This document shows, in pieces, positions 13,928 through 53,040 of a stretch of 64,000 nt of DNA. The notes below the pieces were generated by a model. That model saw nothing but the letters and a program-made list of their open reading frames with translations. It was not told the DNA's origin and did not search any database. Numbering within the stretch: the stretch's first letter is position 1; every line of letters starts with the position of its first letter. The position numbers were made by a program, and so were the translations under genes. Source of the stretch: Prorocentrum cordatum (lineage: Eukaryota; Sar; Dinophyceae; Prorocentrales; Prorocentraceae); assembly GCA_963575745.1 (NCBI GenBank), contig CAUYUJ010000194.1:52985-116984 (forward strand). Direction: 5' to 3'.

Positions 13928-13960
13928 ACTGGGCGCCGGCGGTAAACCGTCAACCTTGGT
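13928..13960 (+). other. LINE-1 target: occupied hairpin A, 3' junction
   Basis: The left stem arm and loop of hairpin A (CCGGCGGTAA then ACCGTCAACCTTGGTT) run straight into the T-rich 3' end of LINE-1. The right arm (TTACCGCC) is missing at the other junction (about 16730), where the sequence resumes at GGGGAACTCGTAGAGC. The insertion therefore has a small target deletion and no duplication. Confidence 0.8.
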
Positions 13961-16735
13961 TTTTGTTTGTTTGGACTCGCGTTCCCAGCTGAGTGCAGCT
14001 GGGCGAGGACCGGTCCCGCAGAAGCACACGGGCAGCGCTGAGCAGCGCTTCGGCTGCCGACAATTCACATTCTGTGACTGTAGCTCCTTCGAGGAGCCAC
14101 GCGGCCTCGGCCAAATCGCTCCAAACGAGGGACACGGCACTAGAAACAGCAAGCTCATGCCCAGCAGGGAAGGGGCCCACGGTTCTCGCGGAAGCGATGC
14201 CTATCTCACTGGGATTGCACTGAGTATTGATTAAGCCGATCTGAAGCCAGAAACCACATCCTGATCCTTGCTGGTCAACCCCGCCATCAAAGCCTCCCCT
14301 GATAGCGAACGGTAAGAGATAAGTTTCGAATGGATATAGATAACAATGAGTTCTGTAGAATGTGCGGCCACATCTGGCCTCATGCGTCAATTCATCCGCT
14401 CGTGTATTGTCCTCCCTGAATTCATGTCTCCATATCTCACGTCCCAAGGCAGCAGGCCTCAGATTGAAACACGCAGCGAGCTCAAAGGTACAATCAATCA
14501 TGGCAGCTGTCCTCTTGCAGTAGCCACGATTCTCACATCTCCATTTCCCCTGTAGCCAGGAGCAGATAAGTAATGAGTCACCCTTGAACTCAGCAGCAAA
14601 ACCCTCTGAGGATATATCCCACACAGTCGCACGTTCCTGGATCATAGCATAACGTATTGCAAGCTTGGCGGACTCTTTGGGGTCGTACTTGGGGTGCAGA
14701 GGGTTGGTCGCGATGTCGACCGCCTCAGTATCGGCCTTCTCTCGAGCCTCAGGGGAGCCTCGAGGTCCATTAGGAGAGCCCTTCCAAGACACCACAAAGT
14801 AATCATAGACCTTAGTTTTGTTGTATTGTGTAAGGAGTTGCTTCCATACCTCCAAGAACTGAACCCAATCGCCCCGTACAGACTCCCACCACTTTTCCCC
14901 AAAGAACTGAATGTAGGGGAACTGCCAAGACCGACCGCCCACAGACACAGGGCCTCCACGAAGCCGCTTGCCCGAACTAGATAAGGCCCTGTTGCCGTGT
15001 TGTCGTAGAACCTCTGTTATTGTGTCGCGAGCCGTGACCCAGCCAACATTGCACATCATAAGCGCACGTCGGGAGTCTCGAAAGGCCCTCCTCCCCTTTG
15101 AGACGGCAAGTGGCTCGTCTCTGAGAGTGTGGGCAGCTCCCTCTCCAGAGGGCATCGGCTGTGAGCGGGCAATGGAACAGGCGACCTGCGAGCAAAGATC
15201 CTCCAGCCGCCTCTCCATATCCGTAATCCTCCCCTCCACCTCCGTCACAGTCGCTGCAGGTACATCCTCCCCCCGTCCATCCGTAAAGCGAACACGTTTA
15301 GCACGTTGAGTCGTTGATCCCTCCACCTCAACCTCCGTCCTTGCCGTCCTGTCCTCCTCCAAAGATAGTAAATATTGCCTCGTGGAGCGCATCATGCCCC
15401 AGCTCTTCCAACACAGCATCTGCACAGCCGACGGGAAACCCCCATCGCAGAAGATTGTCCTGACTCGTGTCAGTGCAGCTGGCCGCCATACCTCCCACCC
15501 CACATCTCCTGGCTTCCTCCTCCCTGACATTCTCAGAAGACACATACCCTCGAACGCATGGATAACCCTCACACACTCACTGTCAATCGTGATGGCCTCT
15601 GCTGCATATAAAAGACGGCTCTGCACAGTCGATTGATATCGACGAAACTTCTTCACCAGAGGCAGCGCCCTGCACGTAAAGTACTGCACCTGCGCAAAGA
15701 ATGCCCTTCGGGCCTGCTGGACGCGCTCCTGCACATCCGCGTGGATAGAAGTGAAACTTCTGGGAATCTGATACCCCAGCACATTCAAACTCTCAACATG
15801 CTTGAAAGGAACAATCCGCGAGCCAATCTGAACCGTGACCGTATCAGTGTACTGAGTACCACACACCATCATCTCTAGACTCTCCTCCTTCCACTCCATC
15901 CCCCAATCCCTGAGAGCAGTAGTGAAGGCAGTGGCCGCTACCTGCGCCTCCGATGCTGATTTGGCGGCCAGAAAAATATTGTCAGCCCAGAGAGCATGAT
16001 TCCAACGTGCATACCGACAATGATCATCATGGCATGGCATCTCGACTCCGACACCGCGCTGATCCAGGCGAGCAATCACATCACGCCACATAGCAATAGT
16101 GACAATAGTAAACGCGATAGGTGATTCGGTACCCCCAGTACGGAGCGACCGATCCCACTGCACATTGGGGATTGTCACTCCTTCAAACAGCACCGTGCAT
16201 GAAGTAGATGAGAGAGGCTCCAATAACGCATACTGTAACCGTGCACTGATCCCAAGGGCCGTCATCGCTCTCGACTGTCGGCAACGTCACAGCATCAAAC
16301 GCCCGCTCGATGTCACAGCTGAGGAGCCACGCCGTTTGATCTCGCCCCCATGTGGAAGCATGTTGTGCAATACATTTCATGGCCGATGAAATCTCCCAGC
16401 AACGTCGTCCGCTGGTAAAACCGTAAACCGCCATATCACTCATGAAGGGTTCCACACATCGTTCCAGTAAAATCGTCACACACGTGAGATACCATTTGGC
16501 CAAGGTATTTCCGACAAGCAGGTTCCTTGTTTGTCGCAGTGTTTCCAGTTTGCTCGTTTTCGGCATAAGTGTTAGGTATACTTCCTGCCATTCCCTTGGC
16601 GTCGGGCGAAGCCCGTTGAATATATCAGAGAAAACCTTACCAATAGAACGCACTGACCTCCACGAAAGAGACTTGAGAAGTTCAACCGAGATGCCGTCGG
16701 GCCCACAGGCCCGTCCTGTTCGGAGCCTGGGGAAC
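13950..16735 (-). mobile_element. LINE-1: 5'-truncated non-LTR retrotransposon
   Basis: The element reads leftward. Its 5' end is truncated inside the reverse transcriptase domain, at about TGRACGPDGIS on the protein. Its 3' end is a short A-rich tail (T-rich on the plus strand at 13955-13972) abutting the hairpin A loop. ORF1 and endonuclease are absent. The 3' untranslated region is essentially missing, since the reading frame runs through the A-rich tail into the target. Codon use and GC content differ from the surrounding repeats. Confidence 0.85.
13950..16735 (-). pseudogene. LINE-1 ORF2 remnant: reverse transcriptase and permuted RNase H, frameshifted
   Basis: Two overlapping frames make up the remnant. 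The upstream frame (16735 to about 16266) carries TGRACGPDGIS and the motif A region CDIERAFDAV. The downstream frame (16265-13950, 771 codons) carries RTGGTESPIAF (block 5), WADN at residues 93-96, motif D MEWKEESLEMMVCG, an FFGEKWW motif near 454-460, and the RNase H motifs. A single frameshift near 16266-16276 separates them, judged by alignment with the other copies. The RNase H motifs are in permuted order: GDSLL (D563), FREDNTRAD (D624), then GFDGG (D660) and ECELSAAEA (E734). The stop codon UGA is supplied by the host target (GGTTGAC). This copy cannot encode a full enzyme. Confidence 0.85.
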
Positions 16736-19126: not shown

Positions 19127-22100
19127 TCAATCACACAACTTATCGCTAAAATAGGCCTGCAAAACCCGTGGGAGTGCTGCAATAACGCACTCTGCAGCGG
19201 GGAGTTCCGTATCCGTCACCGTGGACCCGTCTTGGAGAGCGAAGGAACAAACGTAAACGTCCTTGAAGATAATCTGTGGGGATTCACAGAAGGAAGAGGT
19301 GGGCGAGAGATGGGAGAATCGAGAACGCAGTCCTATCTGAATCCAAGCTCCACTTCCTGCTCCCAGGCTGCACACACCACCATCAAAGCCCGCTTTGATG
19401 AGGCAAGGTTCATAGCATGACTGTTCGTATGGCTGCAACTGGTACTGTTCGTTCGTGTATTGGTGGCCCTCGCGGGCCTGGTGGGTAAGGAGGTCGGCTT
19501 TCTCATTCCATTCCCGAAACTCATGCTTCAGAAGATCGCGTCCTGCTTCAGCAGGTCTCACACCATACATACAACACATTCCTTCCAAAGCATTAATCAT
19601 ATTATCAACACGTGTCTGGTATAAGTGATTATCGGCCTTCCAGAGGCCGCAAAGCCAGCAAATGATAAGAAGAGAATCTCCTGTGATCTCCAACGGCACG
19701 CCTCCTGAAGTCACGTCCCAACATGTGCTCCTCATGTTGTGGATTGCTAATCTCTTACTGAATCGCAGGCGTGCAGCGGGAGAATCATCCTCTGTAACAA
19801 CATACTCCTCATTTCGTTCAGCCAGAAAGACAGGGGAGTTACCATCATGGATACCTTTGCATTTCTTCTGGAAAAGCTTAAGCATAGAGGGTGTACAATG
19901 ATGAGTTGCAAACTGCATAAAGGCATGAAGGCCGCCTTGGAATACTTCCCACCACCGTGGGCCAAAGAACTCATGAAAGGGTGTCTGCCAACAACGTTGT
20001 CCGATCGCTTGCCCTCCTGACCTCCAGCGTTTCATAACTCCACATTCCCTCCACTTGCCGAAAGCCCGAAGGGCTTCTCCCTCAAGTGTGCGCAGCGTAT
20101 CATAACTTATTCCAAAGGCAATCAAACACATGCGTGCATCACTCCATGCTCTATGCTCGTCCGTCATGTCCTCTCCCTGATACAACCTCTGCGCATATGC
20201 CGAGACATCCTTTGCCAGCAGCCACTGAGCTCGGAGAAATCTCTGGACCAAACTGTGGTACCCAGCCTCTGCGAACCTCGATCTGGCATCGCTGTATCTT
20301 CTCTCGTGCCATGTAGCATGGGATTCGTCTGGTTCTCGGCGGCATCGAAGCATGAAGCATAAACACTTGCCCTCAAACGCGTGCAATGCATGGAGGCTAT
20401 CCTTGTCGGCCGTGCAGCCATCCGCACCGAAAAGGGCAATACTCTGAACCTTTTGCTGGTATCGTAGGAACTTGTCCTTCAGAGGCGTGCTTTTGTTCCG
20501 AAAATATCCTGCCTGGGAATAAAATGTCCGACGAGCCGCCTCAATCCTAGAGTCCACATCAAGGTGCGAGGAGTACTTATAATCAGAGAACAACTGGACG
20601 CCTAGAACCGTCATCTCAGTAACACGCCTGAACCGCATAACGTCATTCAGGAAGGGTACAAGTAAGTCGGCTGAAGATAGGATCAGCCCCTCTGCATCTC
20701 TCGCAGCGTCGGCTCCGAAGACCATGTAAAGCAAGCTTGAGGGTTTCCAGCGCATGCCGAAATCGTGGAGTCTAACAGTAAGGTCGTGAATCATGCGTGC
20801 CAATTCTTCCCTGCTTCGTGCCAAGATGTAGCAATTGTCTGCCCATACGAAGTGATTGACGACCGACGTGTAGGACGATTTGCCAGACTCCATGGGATCC
20901 CCAGTTTTAAAACACACTTGATAACCTATGTTCTGTCTATCCCATTGTCGGAAGGTTTCCTGCCACATCGCAGCAATAATAAGATTGAACCCTAGGGGTC
21001 CCTCGGCACCGCCCGTTCTAATACATCTATCCCATCTCACACCCTCCACCTCGATACTTTCATGGCAAACCGTCCCCACACTATCGCATAGTGGATCAAG
21101 AAACGCATATTGAAGATGATAAGGTACATGCGCGTGCTGCAAACCCCGTCTAACATTGGCTACCGTGCAATGGTCGAAGGCTTGTAGGATATCTGCATTG
21201 GCCAGATGTGCTGTTTCCCCCTTTCCCCATGTAGAAGCATGCTGTCCGATGTGTTTCAAACTCGCCGTGATCTCGTTCGTGGTGCGATTAGATTGGAAGC
21301 CGTAAAGACCGAGAGGGCGAAAGAGACCGTTTCGCTCGACATGTTGTTCCACCAAGATAACAATACATGTGCTGTACCATCGTGCAATAGCGTTCTGCAT
21401 ACATAGAAGCCTACCGTCCCTAAGATCCGTGATGCCAGGAAGCTCGGGCATAAAGGAGATGAGGATATCACGCCATGAGGAGGGGTACGGTGTGCACATG
21501 TGTAGCATATCGTCGAACAGGCGTCGGATGTTGCGCAATATCGTCCAAGGGAGACACTTTAACACCTCACACGGTACTCGATCTGGCCCTGTGGCTCGTT
21601 GTGTACGGAGACGCGCCCGCCCACGTCCGAGCAACGCCATAGTGATGGTCGAATACGTGCTGCTACAGAGCTCCTCCCTCGCCTTCTCCTTGATCTCCTC
21701 CATCATACTAGCGTTCTCCTCCCGCATCTGATCCGATGAAAGCTTATTTCTGCAGAAACTGTCGAGCTCCTTCCTCCAAACCTCCCTGTCCTCCGTCTCC
21801 TGGCCCTCCACCACCAAGTGTTTAATATGATGACGAGTCTTTCGACGATTGAGGGGACACTTCCAGGCTGCAACATCTCTGCGATATCGACGGCGATGTA
21901 GATTAAGCTCACTCCTGAGACGTTTCTTTTCCTCTGGAGTCGTGTCTGACGGTAGTTCCCGCCATCTCTCCAAAAGACGAGTCAACTCGATCGGCCTCAC
22001 AGGTGGCCTCTGCTTGCCGCTCTGCGTCGTGGTAAAGTCCACGTCAGGAGCAGCAACAAAAGACTGGATGAGCGTGCTAGGTAAGCTGGCTGGCTCCATC

Positions 22101-23119
22101 TCGAGAGAACGTGCGGGAATCCCACGAAACACAACATCTCCCAAGCTCCGATCCACCCTCCTCCTGGCATTGAACTCATCTCCCCATGTCACGCATCGAT
22201 ATCCTACCAGAGAGGGCGCCGGCGGCTCCACCCGCTCCCTGTGGTCACGTCGCACAATCACACGGCCAGGCGATGCAAACAGCCCAGTTAGAAGTGCATG
22301 ATCACTTAATCGACTCCTATTCCTCCTTCCTCCTCTTGCATAACACCAAGAAACTTCACACTCAGAGCACTCCCAGCGGCTGGGCACCAAGATGTAATCG
22401 AGCACCTTCTGAATTCGTCCAAAGCTACGTTGCTCGCACCACGCTTCCCAAGTAGGACGCCTATCTGCAGAAAAGGTATTGGCCGCCTTAAACATGTGGG
22501 TCTGCATGAACCCCAGTAGCATCTCCATCATCCTCCTCCTCCTGTTGATACGCTCCCTCTCCTCCGTACCACATGCCAAGGTCCTGACCTCCTTCCTCAA
22601 GCCCTCTCCCGTGGCAAGATACAATTCCCCATTACATTCTAACTCACATAGTGGCGGTAGCTCAACATTCCCGTCAAGCAAACAAACAAAGCTGGCCTGG
22701 CTATACCTGTGTCTGAGGCTTCTGAAAGTGGCAGACACACGCTCAAGCGTGAGTTCATACTCCGCTTCGCAATCTTCTCGATGAGAATCGGGCAGGTAAA
22801 GAGAGCAGACAACCAAGGGCGAGATGGATGTACCGAACACACCAATGGCGAATCTAGAGAAAGTAGTAACGAATTCCCTGGACGTCGAGGCCCAACTTCG
22901 ATCGAAGAGGAGCCCCGCCTTCCTGCAGGCACTGTGCTTGATCTGCCATCCGAGACGGGCGGCATCTGCATGAATTATATTCTGGGCCTCCTGAAGCGCG
23001 AACAGACCGCCACATGCACGCATATGGTTGAGCACCTCCACGCCTCTGAAGTTGTTCTCACCAGCCTTGTCGAGGTTCCAGCATCCCAACTTGATCCCCG
23101 ACAGCCGGTGCCGATTCGG
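19127..23119 (-). CDS. LINE-2 ORF2: endonuclease, reverse transcriptase, permuted RNase H
   Basis: This is an open frame of about 1330 codons. Residue numbers count from the UUG codon at 23089. An APE-type endonuclease spans about 1-270: CWNL (3-6), QE (33-34), LDGNVELP (138-145), VLDYILVP (229-236) and SDHAL (262-266). Reverse transcriptase spans about 490-830: ATGPDRVP (499-506), YGFQSNRTTNE (597-607), motif A ADILQAFD (D633), RTGGAEGPLGFN (691-702), motif C WADN (749-752) and motif D FGMRWKPSS. The C-terminal region has FFGPRWW (1041-1047), then RNase H motifs in permuted order: GDSLL (D1138), FREWNEKAD (D1199), GFDGG (D1236), TDTELPAAE (E1295). There is no AUG before the endonuclease; the first (residue 23) lies after CWNL. 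The frame continues ORF1 after one UGA, so it may be made by readthrough. No disabling mutation is seen. Confidence 0.92.
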   Translation of the reverse strand, partial: PNRHRLSGIKLGCWNLDKAGENNFRGVEVLNHMRACGGLFALQEAQNIIHADAARLGWQIKHSACRKAGLLFDRSWASTSREFVTTFSRFAIGVFGTSISPLVVCSLYLPDSHREDCEAEYELTLERVSATFRSLRHRYSQASFVCLLDGNVELPPLCELECNGELYLATGEGLRKEVRTLACGTEERERINRRRRMMEMLLGFMQTHMFKAANTFSADRRPTWEAWCEQRSFGRIQKVLDYILVPSRWECSECEVSWCYARGGRRNRSRLSDHALLTGLFASPGRVIVRRDHRERVEPPAPSLVGYRCVTWGDEFNARRRVDRSLGDVVFRGIPARSLEMEPASLPSTLIQSFVAAPDVDFTTTQSGKQRPPVRPIELTRLLERWRELPSDTTPEEKKRLRSELNLHRRRYRRDVAAWKCPLNRRKTRHHIKHLVVEGQETEDREVWRKELDSFCRNKLSSDQMREENASMMEEIKEKAREELCSSTYSTITMALLGRGRARLRTQRATGPDRVPCEVLKCLPWTILRNIRRLFDDMLHMCTPYPSSWRDILISFMPELPGITDLRDGRLLCMQNAIARWYSTCIVILVEQHVERNGLFRPLGLYGFQSNRTTNEITASLKHIGQHASTWGKGETAHLANADILQAFDHCTVANVRRGLQHAHVPYHLQYAFLDPLCDSVGTVCHESIEVEGVRWDRCIRTGGAEGPLGFNLIIAAMWQETFRQWDRQNIGYQVCFKTGDPMESGKSSYTSVVNHFVWADNCYILARSREELARMIHDLTVRLHDFGMRWKPSSLLYMVFGADAARDAEGLILSSADLLVPFLNDVMRFRRVTEMTVLGVQLFSDYKYSSHLDVDSRIEAARRTFYSQAGYFRNKSTPLKDKFLRYQQKVQSIALFGADGCTADKDSLHALHAFEGKCLCFMLRCRREPDESHATWHERRYSDARSRFAEAGYHSLVQRFLRAQWLLAKDVSAYAQRLYQGEDMTDEHRAWSDARMCLIAFGISYDTLRTLEGEALRAFGKWRECGVMKRWRSGGQAIGQRCWQTPFHEFFGPRWWEVFQGGLHAFMQFATHHCTPSMLKLFQKKCKGIHDGNSPVFLAERNEEYVVTEDDSPAARLRFSKRLAIHNMRSTCWDVTSGGVPLEITGDSLLIICWLCGLWKADNHLYQTRVDNMINALEGMCCMYGVRPAEAGRDLLKHEFREWNEKADLLTHQAREGHQYTNEQYQLQPYEQSCYEPCLIKAGFDGGVCSLGAGSGAWIQIGLRSRFSHLSPTSSFCESPQIIFKDVYVCSFALQDGSTVTDTELPAAECVIAALPRVLQAYFSDKLCD

Positions 23120-32702: not shown

Positions 32703-33960
32703 TGGGCGCCGGCGGTAAACCGTCAACCTTTGTTTTTTTTTTGGGGGGGGAGGCTGACCAGGCACCGAGCGCCCCAGCGCCCGTTAAGTGCCTACCTAGT
32801 CTCTCTGCAGCTGGAGGTCTTGGGCCACCTGGGCTGCGGCCCGCAAGAGGCCCTCGAGACCCGAAAGCTCAGCGTCAGTGATACTGCTATGGGAGGGGAG
32901 TGCCTGTGCACAACGCCCTACTACTTCCCATATGATTGGACAAGGAGAGGAGGCTTGGGGGAAGAGGGAGACTACACGAGCTCTCTTATCTCTATGTTCA
33001 GGGTCAGGGTACGGATCATGGAAACGAGGGATATATCCAATCTGCAGAAACCAACCAACGCCCACACCTTGGGCACACACTCCGCCATCGAAGGATCCGC
33101 GGAGGCCGATAACTCGAAAGTTGTCTTGAACATCAGGACGGAAGATATGGTGGTGGAACAGCTCTCTGAATATCTGGCCTTCCCGTGCTAGATGGGTAAG
33201 TTCATCAGCTACTGTATTACTCTCCCGATATATGTGTCGAATAAAGTCATTGCCCCATGAGGGGGGTCGTACTCCTTCCTCCTCCAATTCTTCCAAAAGA
33301 GAAATAATATTTGCAACCCGCCTACGATAAGAAGCCCCATCTCCTCCTTCTCCTCCTTCAACCTTCCAGAGACCGTTGATCCAATTACAGATAAGAAGCG
33401 AATCGCCCGTCAGCTCCAGACCGATCCCATCATCACTCAGATCCCAAGTCGGCTCCTGTTCATTGTTCGAGGCCAATCTCTGGGCCAGCTTCTCAGACTC
33501 CTTCACCGACAACGGACGGGCCATCATCTCCTCCCCCCTCTCCTTTATGTAGTTTCCTCGTCCTCCAGTTCCTCCACGGACAACAAACAAGTCAAACAGA
33601 GAACCCAAAGTACAAGCTTCCAGGAACTGCCTGCAATACTGAACGAAGTCAGAGTAAGAGAAAGAGCACGCCCTCCACCACCGATCCTCCAGATTCACAA
33701 ACGAGGGAAATATCGTCTGGAACATGAAACACCAAGGATGTTCACCCGTCGCCTGCCCCTTAGCACTGCCTAATCGTGTCAGTTTCGAGGCCTCCTTCCA
33801 CTTCCACTGGGAACGCAAACATTCTGACTCAAGTGTCCTTTTCTCCTCCCACCTCGGGGTACAACACATCAGAAGCCGACGTGCGTCTCGATGCGCTCGA
33901 GGAAACACCGTCTGTTGTCCAGGTCCAGGAACTGCCACCCTCCGACGCTTCGGGGGACTC
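32703..33960 (-). mobile_element. LINE-3: short 3' fragment of a non-LTR retrotransposon
   Basis: Left of the element, hairpin A (32703-32728) runs into a T-rich tract and eight G residues (32729-32750). The right junction is at about 33955, where CGCTTCGGGGGACTCGTAGAGC resumes the F1 site without TTACCGCC. Only the region after the reverse transcriptase is kept. The 3' untranslated part is about 65 bp. Orientation and position match the other three LINEs. Confidence 0.85.
32796..33955 (-). pseudogene. LINE-3 ORF2 C-terminal fragment with permuted RNase H
   Basis: The 401-codon frame begins in flanking F1 sequence at 34001; true LINE sequence starts at about its residue 16-20. It has an equivalent of the FFG-WW motif (FVNLEDRWW, 101-109). 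Permuted RNase H motifs follow: GDSLL (D200), YRESNTVAD (D266), GSFDGG (D305), TDAELSGLE (E378), and a UAG stop. The RNase H region is uninterrupted. With no reverse transcriptase it is a dead fragment. It is clearly diverged from LINE-1, 2 and 4, so it represents another lineage. Confidence 0.85.
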
Positions 33961-35180
33961 GTAGAGCTTCCTGACTCGTAGGGATGTGAGAAAAAATCCA
34001 AAGAACGACTATTTTTTCAGCCGAAGCAATTTCAGACCTCTCAAGATGACTCTAACAAAAAAACAAACACCTCCAATAATACAATAGGTTCGCGGACCTA
34101 GTTCGAGCAGCAGACCGAGTTCCGAGCTCTGGGTTCTTCGACAGACAGACGCGTCTGATGTCTCAGAATCGATTTCCGTGACCAGCAGTACTGTAGCCCT
34201 TTCCAGCACGAGTTAAGTGCGGAATACCGAGAGCACTTCTCAGAATAACTCGAACAATACAAATAGTTTTGCGAACCTAGCTCGGGCAGCAGGCCGAGTC
34301 CAGAGCTCTCGATTCGACGCACGAACGCGTCTGATGATTCCCAATCGATTTCTGTGACTATGAGCTCTGTAGCTGCCCTAGAGCTCGAGTTCAGTATAGA
34401 AAACCGAGGGCGTCTATGAAGATGACCAAAATGATACGAATATGTTTGCGGACCTAGCTCGGCTAGCAGAACGAGTTCAGACGTCTAGATTCAACATGCG
34501 AACGCGCCTAATGATTCTGAATGCGATAGGCGTGCTTACCAGCTCTGTAGCTGTCATTTAGCTCGAGTTAACTACACAGAACCGAGGGCGTCTATCAAGA
34601 TGACCCAAATAATACCAATAGGTTTGCAGACCTAGCTCGGCTAGCAGACCGAGTTCAGACCTCTAGATCCAACAGGCGAACGCGGTTAATGATTCTGAAT
34701 GCAATAGGTGTGCTTACCAGCTCTGTAGCTGTCCTGTAGCTCGAGTTAAGTACAGAGAACCGAGGGCGTCTATCAAGATGACCCAACTAATATCAATAGG
34801 TTTGCAGACCTAGCTCGGCTAGCAGACCGAGTTCAGACCTCTAGATACAACAGGCGAACGCGGTTAATGATTCTGAATGCAATAGATGTGCTTAACAGCT
34901 CTGTTTCTGATCTACAGCTCGAGTTAAGTACAAAATACCGATACCGCGTATCAAGATGACTCGAAACGGCCGATCCCGCCAGAGTGCTTTTTCGCAGTAA
35001 AAGCTACCCGATCGAGCTGAGATCAAGATGGCGAGCGGGAATAAGATCGAATATCACGGGAAAAAATACTAGAGCTCAAACGAATTATTGAATTTCGAGA
35101 ACAAAATTTTCAACCGACCAAAAGTCAGCAAAAGTTCCGTCGAGATTTTTCTTGCCAACTAGCTCTCCAGAGCGCCGGAA
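33956..35180 (+). repeat. F1 module, right flank of LINE-3
   Basis: Resumes at GGGGGACTCGTAGAGCTTCC, with a leader that has lost the TATA-like run. About five monomers follow, the last three with GGGCGTCTATCAAGATGACC variants. The tail runs from about 34955 to 35180. Confidence 0.85.
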
Positions 35181-43044: not shown

Positions 43045-44129
43045 TGGGCGCCGGCGGTAAACCGTCAACCTTTCTTACCGCCGGGGGACTCGTAGAGCTT
43101 CCTGACAATATATAATGTGGAAAAGAATTTCAGAGAACGACTAGTTTTTCAGCCCAAGCGATTATAGACCTCTCAAGATGACTCTAACAAAACAAACGAA
43201 CAGTTTTCCAATCGAGCTCGAGTATGAAACCGAGTTCAGACCTCTGAATGCGACAGGCGGACGCGTCTGATGTCTGCGGATCGATTCCTGTGATTACCAG
43301 CTCTGCAGCCCCCCATACAGCCTGAGTTAAAGTGCAGAAAACCGAGAGTACCTCTCAGGATGACTCGAATAATACAACAGTTTCGCGGATCTCGTTCGAG
43401 CAGCAGACGAGTTCCGAGCTCTCGGTTCGACGAACGGACGCGCCTGATGTCTCGAAATCGATTCCTGTGACCAGCAGCACTGTAGCCCCCCCCAGCACGA
43501 TTTAAGTACAGAAAACCGAGAGCACTTCTCAAGATGACTCGAACAATACCAATAGGTTCGCGAACCTAGCTCGGGGAGCAGGCCGAGTTCAGAGCTCTTG
43601 ATTCAACAGACGAACGCGCCTGATAATTCTCAATCGATTTCTGTGATTATCAGCTCTGTGGCTGCCCTACAGATCGAGTTAAGTACGAAAAACCGAGAGC
43701 GTCTGCTACAATGACTCGAAGAATACGAATAGGTTTGCGACCCTAGCTCGGCTAGCAGACCGAGTTCAGACCTCTGGATTCAACAGGCGAACGCGCCTGA
43801 TCATTCTGAATGCATTAGCTGCTGACCAGCTCTTAGTTGTCCTGAAGCTCGAGTTATCTTGAGAAAACCGACAGCGCGTATCAAGATGACTCGAAACGGC
43901 CGTTCCCGCCTGTGCTTTTTGGCCTTCAAAGTTACCCGATCGAGCTGAGATCAAGATGGCGAGCGGGAATAAGATCGAATATCATGGGAAAAAATACTAG
44001 AGCTCTAACGAATGGTCAAATTTCGAGAACAAAATTTTCAACCGACCAAAAGTCAGCAAAAGGTCCGTCGAGATTTTTCTTGCCAACTAGCTCTCCAGCT
44101 CCCCGGAATTACTCTTAAGCTTCCAGCAA
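43045..44129 (+). repeat. F1 module, left flank of LINE-4
   Basis: Hairpin A occupies 43045-43102. About four monomers and the tail follow, ending with the AGCTTCCAGCAA part of hairpin B. Nearly identical to 49965-50966 on the other side of LINE-4 and to the copies at 50967 and 51940. Confidence 0.88.
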
Positions 44130-44166
44130 CTGGGCGCCGGCGGTAAACCGTCAACCTTTCTTTTTG
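44130..44166 (+). other. LINE-4 target: occupied hairpin A, 3' junction
   Basis: The left stem arm and loop (ACCGTCAACCTTTCTT) continue into TTTGCGGC of the LINE-4 3' end. At the other junction (about 49955) the site resumes as GAGCCGGGGGACTCGAAGAGC, so TTACC is missing and no duplication is seen. Confidence 0.8.
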
Positions 44167-44445
44167 CGGCTTTGCGAGGCTCCTACTGGCCCTAGGGCCA
44201 CGAGCAAGCATGAGGTCAGGTGTCATCAGGAAGCGAAAGCTCTTATTCGAACCTAAAGTCAAGACAACCCAGAGCAGCGAAGCTGCGATGAATCATCAAT
44301 CACAAATATGAGCGAACGAGCAAACGCACACAGAAATGAATCAAAGTGCAGTCAACTAAACATGCAAGAGAAAAGAGAAGTCCCAGCGAAAGCTGAGTAA
44401 ATCATAGTATGAGGAAGAACAGTGAAATAAGAAAAACTGCAACTA

Positions 44446-47400
44446 TCAAGTCTGTGATAACCATAGAACTGCCTGTGGGAGCGCAGTCACGATGCACTCC
44501 AAAGCACTGAGTTCTGTATCAGTAACAGTTGTGGTCGGAGAAATAAGCCAAGCCCTCTCAAAAACTGACTTCCATATCAGCTGAGCGGGGTCCCGTCGAT
44601 CCCAATACCGAGGTTTGAGGCCTATGTCTATCCAGCAACCGCACCCACATCCCTCAGACGACACGCCGCCATCGAAACCAGCCCGAATAGCAGCAGCAAC
44701 GTAAAATTCTGTCTCATAATCATGTGTATACGGACTACATTCTGAACTAGAAATCTGGCCCTCTCGGGCCTGGTGTGTTAGAACGTCGGCACGAGTGTTC
44801 CACTCCCGAAAATCATGACGAATAAGATCCATACCCGGCGCTGGAGGTCGTATATTATAGCTGCAACAAAGCCCATCAAGCGTATTGATAATTTTTGATA
44901 TTCTATCCGCATATGATCTATTATCTGCACGCCACCGTCCCGTAGCCCAGCTAACCACGAGAAGCGAGTCACCCACCACCTCCAGAGGGATTCCAGGGGC
45001 CTCCAGGTTCCAACGGGTTGCTTTCATATTATGAAGAGCGATGCGCTTTGCAAGTTTCTCAGCAGCCATCGGACTATCATCCGTGCTCACCTGGATTTCA
45101 CCATGCTCGGAGGGCGCCAAATATGCGGGCGAACTCACAGGTCCGCACGTCGACACCTCCTGGAAACATTGAAGCATGCTATGAGTACAAAGGTGCGTGG
45201 CGTATTGCATAAATCCAAGCTGGGAGCCTGTGAAATGAATCCACCAATCATCTCCGAAAAACTCAGCTAATGTATATTGCCATGATCTCTGTCCAATACT
45301 CTCCGTACCTCGACAGCGACGTTTGTAAGAAGAGGCCTCCGACCAGTTGCCAAAGTGTCTCATCGTCTCGCTCATAAGTGTACGAGTGCGGTCAGTGTAC
45401 GGTCCAAAACATAAACTCGCCATACGGGAATCGCGCCATGTCCTCTCCGCCGCCTTCAAGTCAATCACTTTCTCAACAATCATGCCATTTGCGAAACTTG
45501 CAATGTCTTTTGCGAAATTCCAGTGCAATATCAGATAACGCTGGACAAGAGAGGAGTACCCAGCCTTCAAGAAACGTTCCCGTGCGACATGATATCTCCT
45601 CTGCTGATAAGCTTGCTCCGTTTCCGTCGGGCCTTTTCGAGAAGAGATCATCATCTTCAGGCATTTCCCTTCGAAGGAATGGAGAAACGAGAGAGTATAA
45701 GAATCTGCAGTGGTGGTCTCCATACCATACAGAGCCAGGCTCTGGACTCTGTCCTGGTATCTCCGCAGCTTATCCTTGAGAGGAATACAGTGCGACCTGA
45801 AATACCCTGCCTGAGAGTAAAATGCGCGACGAGCACAGTCTACGCGAAAAGAAACATCACGATGTACAGAACAGCTATATTCACTATGCAGCTGCGTGCC
45901 CAGTACGTCCATAGAAACAACTCTACGGTAACATAACTCATCAATCTGCTGCACTGCATTCCTCCCGTCACATGCATCTGAGAAGATCGGTATTTTAAGA
46001 TCCATCGAACGCGGGATATTCCCGTCCTCATCCAAGACAGCAGGAGCTCCGCACACCATGTACTTCAGCGATGTGGGTTTCCATCGCATCGAGAAGTTGT
46101 AAAGTGGAAGTGTCAAGTCTCTTACCATACGAGTAAGCTCCTCACGGCTACGACTGACGAGGTACACGTTATCTGCCCAGATAAAATGATTCACCACCGA
46201 CCGATGCTCCGTACCGAAATCTACCGCATACCCCATGCCCTGAACGTCCCAATTATGAATAACGTCACCCCACATGGCAGCAATAATGAGGTTAAAGCCC
46301 AAGGGCCCTTCTGGGCCTCCAGTCCTAATACAGGTGTCCCACTGGATGTTATCAATCTCCAACCCGTCATAGTAGAGGCAGCCCGTGCTGTGCGATAACG
46401 GATCCAGAAACGCGTGCTGTAAATACGCAGGGACACGTGCATGCTCAAGACCCTTATGAACGTTCTGTATCGTGCAGTTGTCAAAGGCCTGGTATATGTC
46501 CATGTCCGCAACGTACAGACACTCACGCTTCCCCCACTTGTCCCCGTGCATACACATGTTAGTAAGGCTACTCGTGATATGGGATGTGCTGTGACCCTGA
46601 CGGAACCCATAGAGGCCCAGAGGATGAAATAGCTTAGACTCTTCCACATGCTGCTCCACCAGGATAACTACGCACGCCGAGAACCAGCGAGTTATGCTAT
46701 TCTGTAAGCACAAGAGTCGAGCATCCGCCAAGTTCGTGATCCCCTTTAGTTTAGGCATGTATGCAATGAGAATGTCCCTCCATCGAACAGGGTACTGGAC
46801 AACCAGCCTCAAAAGAGAGTCGAAGATCTGTTGGATGTGCCGAACTGTGCACCATGGGAGAAGCTTGAGCATTTCACAAGGTACGCGATCCGGTCCTGTT
46901 GCCCGTCGCGTTCGAAGACGAGCCCTCGCTGCACAACATATCGACATCGTAATACTTCGAATGATCTGGCCACCCTTGATCTCCTCCTCCGCCTTCCTCC
47001 TGATTTCCTCCATCAAGTTGCTGTTCTCCTCCCTCCTACGCTGTGATGTCACCTTCCCCTTAACATGCTCCTCCAACTTCTCCTTCAAGATATATCTATC
47101 CTCCGTCTCCCATCCATCAACCACCACATGTTTGATACGATGTCGAATCTTACGACGAGTCGGGGGTACAGCCCATTCAAGAAGATCACGCCGATACTGT
47201 CTCCTCCAAACATTGGCAGCTGCTCTGAGTCTCTTTTTCTCTGGACCATTCTGAAGGGACCGAATCCGCTCTTCGAGACGTGTGAGCTCGGGCGGGCGAG
47301 TAGGCGCTGGAGGCCGGGCAGCTGAGGCCGTGGAGTAATCCACATCCTCCTGCGTAAATGCTTTCAAAATGACAGGAGCGGTCTCTGTCACGTCCTGTGG

Positions 47401-48435
47401 TCGTGTCGACGCAGCTGGAGGGGAACCACATCCAGCAAACACGGCACCGCAAAACTCGAGGTCAACCCTTTCCCTCCCTATCATCTCGTCCGCATACGTC
47501 TGAGCCCGCCATCCCACCAAAGAAGGTTCCCTATGCACACGCTCGACTGTCCAATCAGTCCTGCCAGGACTGGACTGTCGTACTGTGCACATAACTAGAG
47601 CATGATCAGCAAGTCTACTACGATTATGAGTTCCTCCGCTGCGATACTTGAAATCGATCTTACACTCCTGCACCTCCCACCCCATCGGAACCATCACATA
47701 GTCTAAGACTCTCCTCATCGATCTAGTCCGAGAACGATTTCGCTCTTGTCCCCAGGGCTCCCAGGTCGGGCGACGACGGTCGAAGGTGTTGGCAGCTAAC
47801 AAACCCCAAGTCTGCATAAAGGTCAGCAAGTTATCCGTCAATATCTGCCTCCTATCCTTCCTCTCCCTCTCCGCCTTCCCCTCAGATCCCGTCCTCCTCC
47901 ATGATTTCGTACCTGTCCCAGTGGCAGCATAACCCTGACCTGCAACCTCAAGCTGAACAAGTGGTGGCAACTCAACATTGGCATCCGCAAGCAAACAAAA
48001 GCTGGCCTGACGATATTTCTGCTTCAAGAGACGGATCTGACCCTCCAACTCCCCCAGCATTTCCGCCGATTCAAGATCACACTGATCACGATCATGATGT
48101 GGAAAATAAGCCGAACATATGATCACCTGAGACGCCTCCGTTCCAAACACACCCAAGACAAATCTATCGCAGTCTGTGACACATTCGCGCAGGAGTTGGG
48201 CCCACCCATGGGCATACAACAAGCCTGCACGTCTATCCCTGGAAGGTTTAAAATGCCAACCGAGTCTATCTAATTCAGCTGAGTCAAAGAACTCACACTC
48301 TTGCAAACCGAAAATTGAAGAGGCTCCTATCTTCCTCAGAGATGTTAGAACCTCGGTCCCACGTGAGTTGGAAACACCCGAATTACCTACATTCCATGTT
48401 CCGATACGAAGTCCCTTGCTCCAATATCGTTTTTG
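44446..48435 (-). CDS. LINE-4 ORF2: endonuclease, reverse transcriptase, permuted RNase H
   Basis: Open for 1329 codons after the ORF1 UGA. Residues are numbered from the UUG codon at 48306. The endonuclease starts 33 codons upstream of that point with LRIGTWNVGN, then LQE (1-3), ADANVELP (108-113), RRVLDYVMVP (198-207) and ADHAL (233-237). Reverse transcriptase: ATGPDRVP (469-476), YGFRQGHST (566-574), motif A MDIYQAFD (D603), RTGGPEGPLGFN (661-672), WADN (710-713), motif D FSMRWKPTSLKYM. Next FFGDDWW (1016-1022) and permuted RNase H: GDSLL (D1113), FREWNTRAD (D1174), GFDGG (D1212), TDTELSALE (E1265). No AUG occurs before residue 83, well inside the endonuclease. An out-of-frame AUG overlaps the UGA but closes after 18 codons. 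The enzyme would copy LINE RNA at a nicked target. All key residues except the WADN Asn look normal. Confidence 0.93.
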   Translation of the reverse strand, partial: QKRYWSKGLRIGTWNVGNSGVSNSRGTEVLTSLRKIGASSIFGLQECEFFDSAELDRLGWHFKPSRDRRAGLLYAHGWAQLLRECVTDCDRFVLGVFGTEASQVIICSAYFPHHDRDQCDLESAEMLGELEGQIRLLKQKYRQASFCLLADANVELPPLVQLEVAGQGYAATGTGTKSWRRTGSEGKAERERKDRRQILTDNLLTFMQTWGLLAANTFDRRRPTWEPWGQERNRSRTRSMRRVLDYVMVPMGWEVQECKIDFKYRSGGTHNRSRLADHALVMCTVRQSSPGRTDWTVERVHREPSLVGWRAQTYADEMIGRERVDLEFCGAVFAGCGSPPAASTRPQDVTETAPVILKAFTQEDVDYSTASAARPPAPTRPPELTRLEERIRSLQNGPEKKRLRAAANVWRRQYRRDLLEWAVPPTRRKIRHRIKHVVVDGWETEDRYILKEKLEEHVKGKVTSQRRREENSNLMEEIRRKAEEEIKGGQIIRSITMSICCAARARLRTRRATGPDRVPCEMLKLLPWCTVRHIQQIFDSLLRLVVQYPVRWRDILIAYMPKLKGITNLADARLLCLQNSITRWFSACVVILVEQHVEESKLFHPLGLYGFRQGHSTSHITSSLTNMCMHGDKWGKRECLYVADMDIYQAFDNCTIQNVHKGLEHARVPAYLQHAFLDPLSHSTGCLYYDGLEIDNIQWDTCIRTGGPEGPLGFNLIIAAMWGDVIHNWDVQGMGYAVDFGTEHRSVVNHFIWADNVYLVSRSREELTRMVRDLTLPLYNFSMRWKPTSLKYMVCGAPAVLDEDGNIPRSMDLKIPIFSDACDGRNAVQQIDELCYRRVVSMDVLGTQLHSEYSCSVHRDVSFRVDCARRAFYSQAGYFRSHCIPLKDKLRRYQDRVQSLALYGMETTTADSYTLSFLHSFEGKCLKMMISSRKGPTETEQAYQQRRYHVARERFLKAGYSSLVQRYLILHWNFAKDIASFANGMIVEKVIDLKAAERTWRDSRMASLCFGPYTDRTRTLMSETMRHFGNWSEASSYKRRCRGTESIGQRSWQYTLAEFFGDDWWIHFTGSQLGFMQYATHLCTHSMLQCFQEVSTCGPVSSPAYLAPSEHGEIQVSTDDSPMAAEKLAKRIALHNMKATRWNLEAPGIPLEVVGDSLLVVSWATGRWRADNRSYADRISKIINTLDGLCCSYNIRPPAPGMDLIRHDFREWNTRADVLTHQAREGQISSSECSPYTHDYETEFYVAAAIRAGFDGGVSSEGCGCGCWIDIGLKPRYWDRRDPAQLIWKSVFERAWLISPTTTVTDTELSALECIVTALPQAVLWLSQT

Positions 48436-48438
48436 TCA
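48436..48438 (-). promoter_or_regulatory. Candidate readthrough stop, UGA-C, between LINE-4 ORF1 and ORF2
   Basis: Minus strand CGC CAA TGA CAA AAA ends ORF1, and the same frame is open from the next codon through ORF2. The next base is C, as in LINE-2. Whether the ribosome reads through, reinitiates at a non-AUG codon, or ORF2 needs another mechanism cannot be decided from sequence alone. Confidence 0.5.
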
Positions 48439-49839
48439 TTGGCGTCTGTTGACCTCACTCTCTAACATCTGCTTAGTGACAGCCGCCACCGCAGGAAATG
48501 CGCTGACAACCTGCTGCCACTGCGGCTCGTGCACCTCCCAAGTATTACGAGCTGAAGTGAATGTGGCAATATTGATGGGACGCAAAGCACCCTTGGCGAC
48601 GGTCCATATCAACGATCGCGGTGGTCCAATTTCTCCTCTCACTTCGATCTGGGCGTGCTGTTGCGTCATCGTTCTGAACGCTCCGCAAAACCTCGCCACA
48701 GCTTTAACGTGATCCCTTTTCCAAGGTGCGCACTCGATTTGGACACGTAAATTTGATCCTGGGAACTGAATCGCAAGGCCCTCAGTCAAGACTGCAGGTA
48801 AGGGCAGACCATTGTGCCCATCAACAGTATTCTTAATGATTGCATCCCACTTCTTTTTAATCGTCCAGAGCAGGTCCCTACTCGTATTGGGTTTGAAACT
48901 GATCTTGACACTGCCAAACATATACCTGCCCGAATTGATACGCTCAGTTGTTTCACGATCTACTGCATCCTTCTCGAGTTGATTGCATCGCTCCAAGCAA
49001 TTGTCGATAAGTTTTTGGCAATCACTCCACGTTAGGAGTTGCTCCGCCCGCGCGCCATGATCTGACCAATTCGTCACCCACCCCTTCAACTCAATGTATG
49101 TCGGTCTGAAATCCTGGAAACGCGAGCTGGGAGATAAGCCAGGCGGCCCGCCGCCTCCAATACCTCCACCAGCCGTAGTACGAGAAACATCTGATCCAGC
49201 ACCACTTCCATTATGTACTTGACGCAGGGCCTCTTCAAATTTATTCATCCTCTCCTCCATCTTATTAGCTCTGTCATCGTGCTTCTGCAATGTACTCTCC
49301 ACGGCTTTGATATGATTGTTCGTGTTCTGAATGGTCTGTAAAATCTCCTCCTTACTATCCTCTGCTTTGAAGAAATGGTCCATGACGAACCGCTCAAACC
49401 CAGTGGTGGCAGTTTTCATCATCTCCTCACGTTGTTTTTGAATATCACCTCCATTCCTCGGTCTCTTGTTTTCTTTATTTGTGTCCACAGCAGCGTTCAT
49501 ATTTGCATCAACCGAAGAGGATGCACCCAACATTATTGCTTCTGAAATCTGTGATGGAATACCCCACTTGTTTAGAAATGCTTTGTCGTCTTCACGCTGT
49601 CGTTTCCCTGATGCACGCTCCAAGGATCTTAAATCAGCGGCGTCCCAAGGTTCAAATTGATCCAAGTAGTCGAAATGATCCACACGGTCCTCTCGAGGTG
49701 TCAATGGGCAGTCAAGATCTTGACTTGTATTCTGATGCCACTGAGCAACTGTTTCGTTCCAACGCCCCAATCCAATTGCTTCCAACAAAGCTTGTCTCGA
49801 CTCGGGTGTGTCGTACGACGTGGTCCCAAATACTTGCAC
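48436..49839 (-). CDS. LINE-4 ORF1 protein
   Basis: 467 codons, bounded upstream by a UAA at 49846-49848. The first codon given is GUG, since no AUG lies upstream in frame, so the start is uncertain. N-terminal part (about 1-130) is acidic and unrecognised, with a basic patch KENKRPRN. A predicted coiled coil follows at about 165-215 (EEILQTIQNTNNHIKAVEST, KMEERMNKFEEALRQVHNG), then a Gly-rich linker. The conserved globular part matches LINE-2: PTYIELKGWVTNW, ERINSGRYMFGSVKISFKP, APWKRDHVKAVARFCGAF, VRGEIGPP, LRPINIATF, TWEVHEPQWQQ. No zinc knuckle is seen. An RNA-binding chaperone role is inferred from position in a LINE. The fold could be RRM-like, but I cannot show that. Confidence 0.85.
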   Translation of the reverse strand: MQVFGTTSYDTPESRQALLEAIGLGRWNETVAQWHQNTSQDLDCPLTPREDRVDHFDYLDQFEPWDAADLRSLERASGKRQREDDKAFLNKWGIPSQISEAIMLGASSSVDANMNAAVDTNKENKRPRNGGDIQKQREEMMKTATTGFERFVMDHFFKAEDSKEEILQTIQNTNNHIKAVESTLQKHDDRANKMEERMNKFEEALRQVHNGSGAGSDVSRTTAGGGIGGGGPPGLSPSSRFQDFRPTYIELKGWVTNWSDHGARAEQLLTWSDCQKLIDNCLERCNQLEKDAVDRETTERINSGRYMFGSVKISFKPNTSRDLLWTIKKKWDAIIKNTVDGHNGLPLPAVLTEGLAIQFPGSNLRVQIECAPWKRDHVKAVARFCGAFRTMTQQHAQIEVRGEIGPPRSLIWTVAKGALRPINIATFTSARNTWEVHEPQWQQVVSAFPAVAAVTKQMLESEVNRRQ

Positions 49840-49954
49840 GAAGAATTACGATATGCACCTCAGGCTCTGCTGATCACTACCGCTGGCCTTGGCGGAGGTA
49901 GCCCAGGCAGGACAAAGTCAGCGGCTCCGTGACCTTGAGCCGACACGCCTTGAG

Positions 49955-50966
49955 CCGGGGGACTCGAAGAGCTTCCTGACAACATATAATGTGGGAAATA
50001 ATTTCAGAGAACGACTAGTTTTTCAGCCCAAGCGATTATAGACCTCTCAAGATGACTCTAACAAAACAAACGAACAGTTTTCCAATCGAGCTCGAGTATG
50101 AAACCGAGTTCAGACCTCTGAATGAGACAGGCGGACGCGTCTGATGTCTGCAGATCGATTCCTGTGATTACCAGCTCTGCAGCCCCCCATACAGCCTGAG
50201 TTAAGTGCAGAAAACCGAGAGTACCTCTCAGGATGACTCGAATAATACAACAGTTTCGCGGATCTCGTTCGAGCAGCAGACCGAGTTCCGAGCTCTCGGT
50301 TCGACGAACGGACGCGCCTGATGTCTCGAAATCGATTCCTGTGACCAGCAGCACTGTAGCCCTCCCCCAGCACGATTTAAGTACAGAAAACCGAGAGCAC
50401 TTCTCAAGATGACTCGAACAATACCAATAGGTTCGCGAACCTAGCTCGGGGAGCAGGCCGAGTTCAGAGCTCTTGATTCAACAGACGAACGCGCCTGATA
50501 ATTCTCAATCGATTTCTGTGATTATCAGCTCTGTGGCTGCCCTACAGATCGAGTTAAGTACGAAAAACCGAGAGCGTCTGCTACAATGACTCGAATAATA
50601 CGAATAGGTTTGCGACCCTAGCTCGGCTAGCAGACCGAGTTCAGACCTCTGGATTCAATAGGCGAACGCGCCTGATCATTCTGAATGCATTAGCGGTGCT
50701 GACCAGCTCTGTAGTTGTCCTGAAGCTCGAGTTATCTTGAGAAAACCGACAGCGCGTATCAAGATTACTCGAAACGGCCGTTCCCGCCTGCCTGCTTTTT
50801 GGCCTTCAAAGTTACCCGATCGAGCTGAGATCAAGATGGCGAGCGGGAATAAGATCGAATATCATGGGAAAAAATACTAGAGCTCTAACGAATGTTCAAA
50901 TTTTGAGAACGAAATTTTCAACCGACCAAAAGTCACCAAAAGGTCCGTCGAGATGTTTCTTGCCAA
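49955..50966 (+). repeat. F1 module, right flank of LINE-4
   Basis: Starts at GCCGGGGGACTCGAAGAGC (one base differs from the usual CTCGTAGAGC) with leader ACATATAATGTGGG. About four monomers and a tail (50765-50966) follow. Differs from 43080-44090 at only scattered positions. Confidence 0.88.
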
Positions 50967-51638
50967 CTGGGCGCCGGCGGTAAACCGTCAACCTTTCTTA
51001 TCGCCGGGGGACTCGTAGAGCTTCCTGACAATATATGATTTGGAAAAGAATTTCAGAGAACGACTAGTTTTTCAGCCCAAGCGATTATAGACCTCTCAAG
51101 ATGACTCTAACAAAACAAACAAACAGTTTTCCAATCGAGCTCGAGTATGAAACCGAGTTCAGACCTCTGAATGCGACAGGCGGACGCGTCTGATGTCTGC
51201 GGATCGATTCCTGTGATTACCAGCTCTGCAGCCCCCCATACAGCCTGAGTTAAGTGCAGAAAACCGAGAGTACCTCTCAGGATGACTCGAATAATACAAC
51301 AGTTTCGCGGATCTCGCTCGAGCAGCAGACCGAGTTCCGAGCTCTCGGTTCGACGAACGGACGCGCCTGATGTCTCGAAATCGATTCCTGTGACCAGCAG
51401 CACTGTAGCCCTCCCCCAGCACGATTTAAGTACAGAAAACCGAGAGCACTTCTCAAGATGACTCGAACAAGACCAATAGGTTCGCGAACCTAGCTCGGGG
51501 AACAGGCCGAGTTCAGAGCTCTTGATTCAACAGACGAACGCGCCTGATAATTCTCAATCGATTTCTGTGATTAGCAGCTCTGTGGCTGCCCTACAGATCG
51601 AGTTAAGTACGGAAAACCGAGAGCGTCTGCTACAATTA
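50967..51638 (+). repeat. F1 module truncated within monomers
   Basis: Hairpin A occupies 50967-51025 (TTATCGCC, one stem mismatch). Near-identical to the start of the preceding module, then cut at 51638 inside a monomer by an A' hairpin, leaving no tail. Confidence 0.85.
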
Positions 51639-51939
51639 CTGGCGCCGGCGGTGAACCGTCAACCTGGTCACCGCCGGGAACCTCGTAGAGCTCCTCTCAC
51701 TAGTAAGAGTGCAGAGAATCGACACAGAATCAAAAAATGGAGATTTTTCGAAAATCTTGAAATTCGATTTTTTTCGATGTTCATATTCGCTCAGTTCCCG
51801 GAAGTCAACTCATGCAAAAATCCATCGAGAGAGCTGAGCTGCTGTCAGAGAGGAGTTCATATGCCAATGCTCGGCGTAAAAATCTGCTTTTTCAAAATAA
51901 ATGGTCAAATATCTTTCAAATTTTCGCAAAACCACCCAA
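51639..51939 (+). repeat. F2 element with A' hairpin
   Basis: Hairpin A' occupies 51639-51693, with a perfect GGTGA/TCACC stem. The F2 body contains GTGCAGAGAATCGACACAG, CAATGCTCGGCGTAAAAATC and TCAAATATCTTTCAAAT. It ends at CCACCCAAA, where the next hairpin A starts. Similar bodies lie at 59.2, 60.0 and 61.1-61.4 kb. Confidence 0.8.
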
Positions 51940-53040
51940 ACTGGGCGCCGGCGGTAAACCGTCAACCTTTCTTACCGCCGGGGGACTCGTAGAGCTTCCT
52001 GACAATATATAATGTGGAAAAGAATTTCAGAGAACGACTAGTTTTTCAGCCCAAGCGATTATAGACCTCTGATAACTCTAACAAAACAAACGAACAGTTT
52101 TCCAATCGAGCTCGAGTATGAAACCGAGTTCAGACCTCTGAATGCGACAGGCGGACGCGTCTGATGTCTGCGGATCGATTCCTGTGATTACCAGCTCTGC
52201 AGCCCCCCATACAGCCTGAGTTAAGTGCAGAAAACCGAGAGTACTCTCAGGATGACTCGAATAATACAACAGTTTCGCGGATCTCGTTCGAGCAGCAGAC
52301 CGAGTTCCGAGCTCTCGGTTCGACGAACGGACGCGCCTGATGTCTCGAAATCGATTCCTGTGACCAGCAGCACTGTAGCCCTCCCCCAGCACGATTTAAG
52401 TACAGAAAACCGAGAGCACTTCTCAAGATGACTCGAACAATACGAATAGGTTCGCGAACCTAGCTCGGGAGCAGGCCGAGTTCAGAGCTCTTGATTCAAC
52501 AGACGAACGCGCCTGATAATTCTGAATCGATTTCTGTGATTATCAGCTCTGTGGCTGCCCTACAGATCGAGTTAAGTACGAAAAACCGAGAGCGTCTGCT
52601 ACAATGACTCGAATAATACGAATAGGTTTGCGACCCTAGCTCGGCTAGCAGACCGAGTTCAGACCTCTGGATTCAACAGGCGAACGCGCCTGATAATTCT
52701 GAATGCATTAGCTGTGCTGACCAGCTCTGTAGTTGTCCTCAAGCTCGAGTTATCTTGAGAAAACCGACAGCGCGTATCAAGATGACTCGAAACGGCCGTT
52801 CCCGCCTGCCTGCTTTTTCGCCTTCAAAGTTACCCGATCGAGCTGAGATCAAGATGGCGATCGGAAATAACATCGAATATCATGGGAAAAAATACTAGAG
52901 CTCTAACGAATGGTCAAATTTCGAGAACAAATTTTTCAACCGACCAAAAGTCAGCAAAAGTTCCGCCGAGATTTTTCTTGCCAACTAGCTCTCCAGCGCG
53001 CCGGAATTACTCTTAAGCTTCCAGCAATAACTTGCTAAGG
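51940..53040 (+). repeat. F1 module with hairpin A and part of B
   Basis: Hairpin A occupies 51940-51998. Fourth near-identical copy of the module seen at 43045, 49955 and 50967. About four monomers follow, with the tail from about 52785 and hairpin B at about 53007-53056. Confidence 0.85.

Follow-up and report, generated by a model that had tools for sequence, protein, structure and literature searches.

The RNase H of long interspersed nuclear elements (LINEs) is thought to clear the template RNA after first-strand synthesis. In conventional elements, such as I, Tad1, plant L1 and others, this C-terminal domain follows the canonical chain order, and the four catalytic acids of a canonical RNase H are found in strand β1, at the start of helix αA, at the end of β4 and at the start of αE. 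The αA-β4 connection and the chain ends in αE and β1 are placed opposite these acids, at the other sheet end. Here, a stretch of 64,000 nucleotides from the dinoflagellate Prorocentrum cordatum (contig CAUYUJ010000194.1, positions 52,985 to 116,984; hereafter the window, whose own numbering is used) was analysed, in which four LINE copies, LINE-1 to LINE-4, carry open reading frame 2 (ORF2) on the minus strand. The C-terminal domain of this ORF2 is very likely to be a type-1 (RVT_3-like) RNase H that has undergone a natural circular permutation, in which the chain has been opened between αA and β4 and the old ends (αE to β1) have been linked, with the fold and the four acids retained.

Motif order at the end of ORF2

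A sequence-only reading had located the domain at 44446..45110, and this position was right, with the gene on the minus strand. It had also described, for all four LINEs, a half with the TDS and NxxAD motifs preceding the half with DG and ELxA, and a protein ending right after the ELxA helix. The order GDSLL, HxxRExNxxAD, FDGGV and TxxELxxxE was indeed observed within the last ~180-220 residues of 4/4 ORF2 copies, two AlphaFold models agree with the exchange of halves, and αA directly precedes the end of the LINE-4 ORF2. The features concerned, all on the minus strand, are the following:

44446..48435, minus strand: LINE-4 ORF2, 1329 aa from stop to stop, with an endonuclease-like N-terminus, reverse transcriptase (RT) and the predicted permuted RNase H at the C-terminus
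44749..44994, minus strand: LINE-4 RNase H, half encoded first (canonical second half: β4 with GDSLL, αB, αD, β5 and αE with NxxAD)
44449..44691, minus strand: LINE-4 RNase H, half encoded second (canonical first half: β1 with FDGG, β2, β3 and αA with TELSALE)
44959..44973, minus strand: GDSLL motif of LINE-4, canonical TDS, β4 Asp
44785..44817, minus strand: HDFREWNTRAD motif of LINE-4, canonical NxxAD Asp
44662..44676, minus strand: FDGGV motif of LINE-4, canonical DG, β1 Asp
44503..44523, minus strand: TDTELSA motif of LINE-4, canonical ELxA, αA Glu
19127..23119, minus strand: LINE-2 ORF2, 1330 aa, predicted permuted RNase H at 19130-19702
13950..16286, minus strand: C-terminal part of LINE-1 ORF2, 778 aa, predicted permuted RNase H at 13953-14603
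32796..34016, minus strand: remnant of LINE-3 ORF2, 406 aa, predicted permuted RNase H at 32799-33428

Translated from its first TTG, the LINE-4 ORF2 spans 44446-48306 (minus strand). The tails of LINE-1, LINE-2 and LINE-3 share 34-46% identity with that of LINE-4, with the four motifs and their order unchanged. The LINE-1 copy is broken, because its ORF2 is spread over two overlapping frames (16183-16809 and 13950-16286, minus strand). When compared with the Pfam profile RVT_1 (cut-off 29.6 bits), LINE-4 scored above the cut-off (34.6 bits), LINE-2 (27.5) and LINE-1 (22.9) scored below it, and no match was found in the LINE-3 remnant. The Pfam profile Exo_endo_phos reached 12.9 bits in LINE-4, below its cut-off of 24.5; by eye, the N-terminus of ORF2 presented a WN.G-type start and a QEC motif, which may be those of an APE-like endonuclease.

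The presence of a complete conventional RNase H elsewhere in ORF2, named by the sequence-only reading as an argument against a permuted domain, was rejected, since neither Pfam (four copies) nor a motif scan (LINE-4 and LINE-2) revealed one. In these two ORF2s, the scan detected neither a further NxxAD nor any [TS]DS, and the part preceding GDS lacked a hydrophobic-DG-[GSA] motif.

Predicted fold

The tails of LINE-4 and LINE-2 were modelled with AlphaFold (AF2), the structure prediction that the sequence-only reading had proposed as a check. No unrelated fold was found in these two models; both presented the RNase H strand and helix set in the order β4-αB-αD-β5-αE-β1-β2-β3-αA, in contrast to the canonical β1-β2-β3-αA-β4-αB-αD-β5-αE, with a linker of ~20 residues from αE to β1. 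For LINE-4, the predicted local distance difference test (pLDDT) was 75.7 for the whole model and mostly >90 for the RNase H domain, in which 14/18 ten-residue blocks of residues 151-330 had a mean of >=91. Its main elements were E153-159, H162-168, H177-197, E209-211, H218-228, E249-263, E266-279, E291-302 and H308-331, joined by the small linker elements E233-236 and H243-248. The LINE-2 model, with its main elements in the same order, had a mean pLDDT of 91.5 and a predicted template modelling score (pTM) of 0.88. The RNase H strands and helices are predicted, in this way, to form one compact domain in permuted order.

The exchanged halves might also be explained by two half-domains derived from a tandem RNase H pair, each being completed by a dimer partner through domain swapping. 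A permutant is likely to come about through tandem duplication, and the helix located just before GDS (residues 126-142 of the LINE-4 model) could be a remnant αA. However, this upstream helix has no invariant Glu, whereas the Glu of the C-terminal helix is invariant in the four window copies, and the confident LINE-2 model was obtained from a single chain, which leaves such an arrangement quite improbable.

In a circularly permuted domain, the acids would form the usual two-metal site, as judged from the modelled fold, and catalysis need not be disturbed by the permutation, because both rewired connections lie away from the acids. The RT side would connect to the domain through β4, and during target-primed reverse transcription the domain would strip the RNA:cDNA hybrid of its template RNA.

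Profile comparisons with exchanged halves

Database relatives comprised 18 proteins and a second set of 12 (3 repeats; one, P0030 from Rosa, being a canonical plant RNase H). A second group among these relatives carries FDGS where the window LINEs have FDGG, and includes the test sequences P0019-P0023, which were compared with RVT_3 (PF13456) in their native order and with the halves swapped. In P0022, the native sequence scored 29.3 bits in two stretches, the best of which covered profile positions 61-123, and the swapped sequence scored 34.0 bits in one stretch covering 2-123 of 123. Swapping also raised the scores of P0023 (from 22.3 to 28.8 bits, 2-122), P0020 (from 21.2 to 27.6 bits, 2-122) and P0019 (from 20.1 to 22.3 bits, 61-123 only); P0021 had no match to this profile, native or swapped. 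The curated RVT_3 cut-off was exceeded by P0022 and P0023 in native order and by P0019, P0020, P0022 and P0023 when swapped. As a mirror control, the canonical P0030 scored 92.7 bits in one stretch natively and 76.4 in two after its halves were swapped.

Profiles were also built from identical pieces of 16 sequences in native or swapped order and compared with PDB sequences, counting matches at E up to 1. The best match of the swapped profile was 3u3g (27.0 bits, E 3.1e-5), across the restored αA-β4 junction, and the native-order matched control reached at best 22.0 bits (E 0.001), in the second half only. The same six chains were found in both runs, and the swapped score exceeded the native score in 6/6: 3u3g (27.0 against 22.0 bits), 4h8k (23.3 against 18.3), 4e19 (19.9 against 17.8), 3aly (17.8 against 15.9), 2ehg (17.6 against 15.8) and 2kq2 (18.1 against 13.0). 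Each of them is an RNase H or related to one; 3aly is named an uncharacterized protein in one listing and RNase HI by its title. Likewise, hhalign comparison with seven canonical RNases H of the same genome gave 80.7% (E 1.3e-5) over 91 columns that cross the junction for the swapped order, and 34.2% (E 4.2e-4) over 71 columns for the native one.

When P0030 was compared with a hidden Markov model (HMM) of five native FDGS-group sequences, two pieces matched in crossed order, HMM 76-112 corresponding to target 26-62 and HMM 4-81 to target 104-169. The E-values of the two domains were 0.17 and 0.0022, and that of the full match was 4.6e-8; the best of 2000 shuffles in this test reached 0.066. 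Doubling the FDGS-group profile did not raise the match to P0030.

Some observations weigh against a permuted RNase H. The native ORF2s of LINE-1 to LINE-4 gave no Pfam RNase H match above cut-off, and order-dependent structure searches matched RNase HI by halves only and ranked unrelated proteins first; the first-encoded half of the LINE-4 domain was 23-25% identical to RNase HI chains. Moreover, the swapped-half search suggested by the sequence-only reading succeeded in part: a continuous RNase H match was obtained for relatives and profiles, and single window sequences, native or swapped, were negative or weak against Pfam, below the RVT_3 cut-off. The lack of native matches for single window sequences and the unrelated proteins heading the sequential fold searches would also fit a chance likeness of motifs in an unrelated C-terminal domain. 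This explanation deserves hardly any credence, as every listed PDB profile match is an RNase H or related to one, P0022 and P0023 pass the RVT_3 cut-off even natively, the motifs are kept across deeply split clades, and the crossed pieces matched by the FDGS-group HMM in P0030 contradict chance.

Catalytic acids and selection

The assembly that includes the window (4.128 Gb, 21,875 contigs) was searched, and 57 loci belonging to the permuted group (L001-L020 and L041-L077, including the window copies L004 and L042) were considered. All four acids, namely the Asp residues of GDS, NxxAD and FDG and the Glu of ELxA, which the sequence-only reading had reported as conserved between diverged copies, were present in 57/57 loci and in 4/4 window copies; intact copies are over-represented among these loci, because they were chosen as best matches. 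In an alignment of 22 proteins (the 4 window copies and 18 database relatives), the columns of G.SLL and H..RE.N..A were invariant, as was the FDG Asp. All four acids were found in 16/18 parsed rows, the relatives P0008 (NxxAN) and P0018 (GYS) each missing one, and P0007 was mis-parsed, its DG having been read at the wrong place. By eye, P0010 and P0017 are apparently out of frame near their ends, so the column match of P0017 in that region is accidental.

Selection was evaluated on 41 LINE-4-type sequences (the window reference and 40 loci), 35 of them gap-free over 852 bases, after dropping 6 that matched from base 4 only. The ratio of nonsynonymous to synonymous substitutions (dN/dS) was calculated over 190 pairs of 20 distinct sequences, medians being taken from pairs with pS above 0.02. 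The RNase H part had a pooled pN/pS of 0.17 and a median dN/dS of 0.15 (159 pairs), and the stretch just upstream had values of 0.15 and 0.14 (160 pairs). The RNase H domain is under purifying selection, as the sequence-only reading had supposed for the permuted form.

The permuted fold may now be mainly structural or bind nucleic acids without catalysis. The two relatives lacking an acid favour this possibility, together with L076 (C4809), an FDGS-group copy of the same genome with RT and RNase H in separate open frames, in which HFDSS replaces FDG[GS], although its Asp is kept. Considering the retention of the acids in all 57 loci, even if biased to intact copies, and a dN/dS for the domain close to that of the upstream stretch, a loss of catalysis appears unlikely. 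The permutation seems to be old and conserved, and the domain, judged from sequences and models, is probably still working.

Distribution, RT motif C and origin of the permutation

By eye, motifs of both halves were recognised in 25/28 proteins (P0002-P0029), in permuted order in all 25; P0017, P0028 and P0029 were each missing one half. Two of these relatives are labelled Karenia brevis (P0026 and P0027) and one P. cordatum (P0018). In L077, which represents a further family in the same genome, the end of the 1244-aa frame reads CGDSKTVV, HIYREANAYAD, CWDGG and TVTEAELSAAE. In a tree of 23 tails, with midpoint root only and most other branching unresolved, an FDGS clade of 6 rows, Karenia and L076 among them, was separated by a 100/100 split from an FDGG clade of 17 rows, the latter holding the four window LINEs and the long-branched L077. 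The permutation is older than this split, because both clades are permuted.

In RT motif C, ADN (as WADN or YADN) was found instead of ADD in 34/34 loci that reach it, the other 23/57 fetched frames ending short of it; ADN was read in L044, L076 and L077. Its positions in the window are:

46168-46176, minus strand: ADN of LINE-4
20834-20842, minus strand: ADN of LINE-2
15978-15986, minus strand: ADN of LINE-1

RNases H with the canonical order were found elsewhere in this genome (of 2607 candidates, the best 150 were scored and 20, L021-L040, were fetched), so the permutation is not an assembly quirk. An assembly artefact was also ruled out by the many contigs, the other data sets and Karenia.

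It appears rather probable that a circularly permuted, catalytically active RNase H and the ADN motif C jointly characterise a deep group of dinoflagellate LINEs, the permutation having arisen once, before the split between Prorocentrum-type and Karenia elements. In such a group, the domain would be entered from the RT via β4, altering the tether of the RNase H to the polymerase, and it would be the first circularly permuted RNase H in a reverse-transcribing element. Permutants usually arise when a tandem duplication loses its outer halves, and a single event of this kind, affecting the RNase H domain in the ancestor of the LINE group, would be the probable origin here. No tandem-duplication intermediate was seen among the sequences examined.

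Abundance, mobility and insertion sites

The LINE-4 tail had at least 137 scored matches (the best 137 of 5711 first-look candidates), and among those listed, 30 were protein-identical, including the window copy, and 8 had an internal stop. The LINE-3 tail also had at least 137 (the best 137 of 5352 candidates). Over the 852-base tail, 15/40 LINE-4-type loci fetched, including the window copy, were DNA-identical to it. In 9/19 other loci, agreement with the window copy continued for 279-319 bases past the ORF2 match, followed by different flanks; in the remaining 10/19, the comparison, made without gaps, lost register at +47 or +48, the 20th locus being the window copy itself. Since 7 of the 9 loci sharing the LINE-4 3' end were DNA-identical over the tail, and their flanks differed, recent separate insertions are indicated.

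At 44127-44167 and in L005-L018, the LINE-4 3' end (GCCGCAAAAA) often gives way to the repeat GGTTGACGGTTTACCGCCGGCGCCCAGT or to a closely similar one, except in L005 and L015, which possibly reflects a target preference. The same repeat, or a close variant, occurs again at 43041, 50964 and 51938. A tandem repeat of ~177 bases flanks the LINE-4 insertion on both sides (43200-43800 and 50100-52500).

An ORF1-like frame lies upstream of the LINE-4 ORF2, with no Pfam match above cut-off:

48436..49845, minus strand: ORF1-like frame of LINE-4, 469 aa from stop to stop

In L044 (2283-3815), such a frame begins directly after an ORF2 of the LINE-3 family, which suggests head-to-tail neighbouring elements. 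Near the window end, near-identical frames at 55351-56299 and 62787-63735, ~7436 bases apart, reveal a long direct duplication.

Comparison with known systems

In the portions of the open-licence PubMed Central literature covered, which mostly leaves out subscription journals, no description of a permuted RNase H in a retroelement was recognised. SymbioLINE-Dnmt elements of Symbiodinium are dinoflagellate LINEs with endonuclease and RT, as here, carrying a DNA methyltransferase (DNMT) in ORF1, and RNase_H is placed in the Pol of DIRS-like elements in that account (PMC5890265). Unlike what is observed for the window LINEs, no permutation is mentioned in the accessible parts of that article (PMC5890265). 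The CIRPIN preprint of 2025 presents one circularly permuted 'Ribonuclease H-like' domain pair among AlphaFold cluster representatives, a natural permutation in the RNase H-like class recognised from predicted structures, as here; its proteins are not named in the portion available, and the terms retrotransposon, reverse transcriptase and dinoflagellate each occur 0 times in the text (PMC12667903).

The chain order of RNase H, a textbook fold, seems fixed, and a conserved, abundant and apparently recently spread permutant would show that this order can be rewired with the active-site residues preserved. Elements of the window type would be recorded as devoid of RNase H, because Pfam gives none above cut-off, and permuted catalytic domains may go unnoticed in other mobile elements. 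For structural biologists, these LINEs would offer a natural experiment on the importance of the tether between RT and RNase H.

As in I, Tad1, plant L1 and other conventional elements, the RNase H of the window LINEs stands behind the RT at the end of ORF2; whereas the conventional domain is canonical, that of the window begins at β4. The canonical RNases H of the same genome have the four acids in the order DG, ELxA, TDS and GNxxAD (7/20 aligned), and the same four acids are found in the LINE domain. With RNase HI, RVT_3 and RNase_H (PF00075), this domain has in common the motifs, the four acids, the strand and helix set and the profile homology, and it differs from their canonical order by a circular permutation, very likely natural, that places the new termini between αA and β4.
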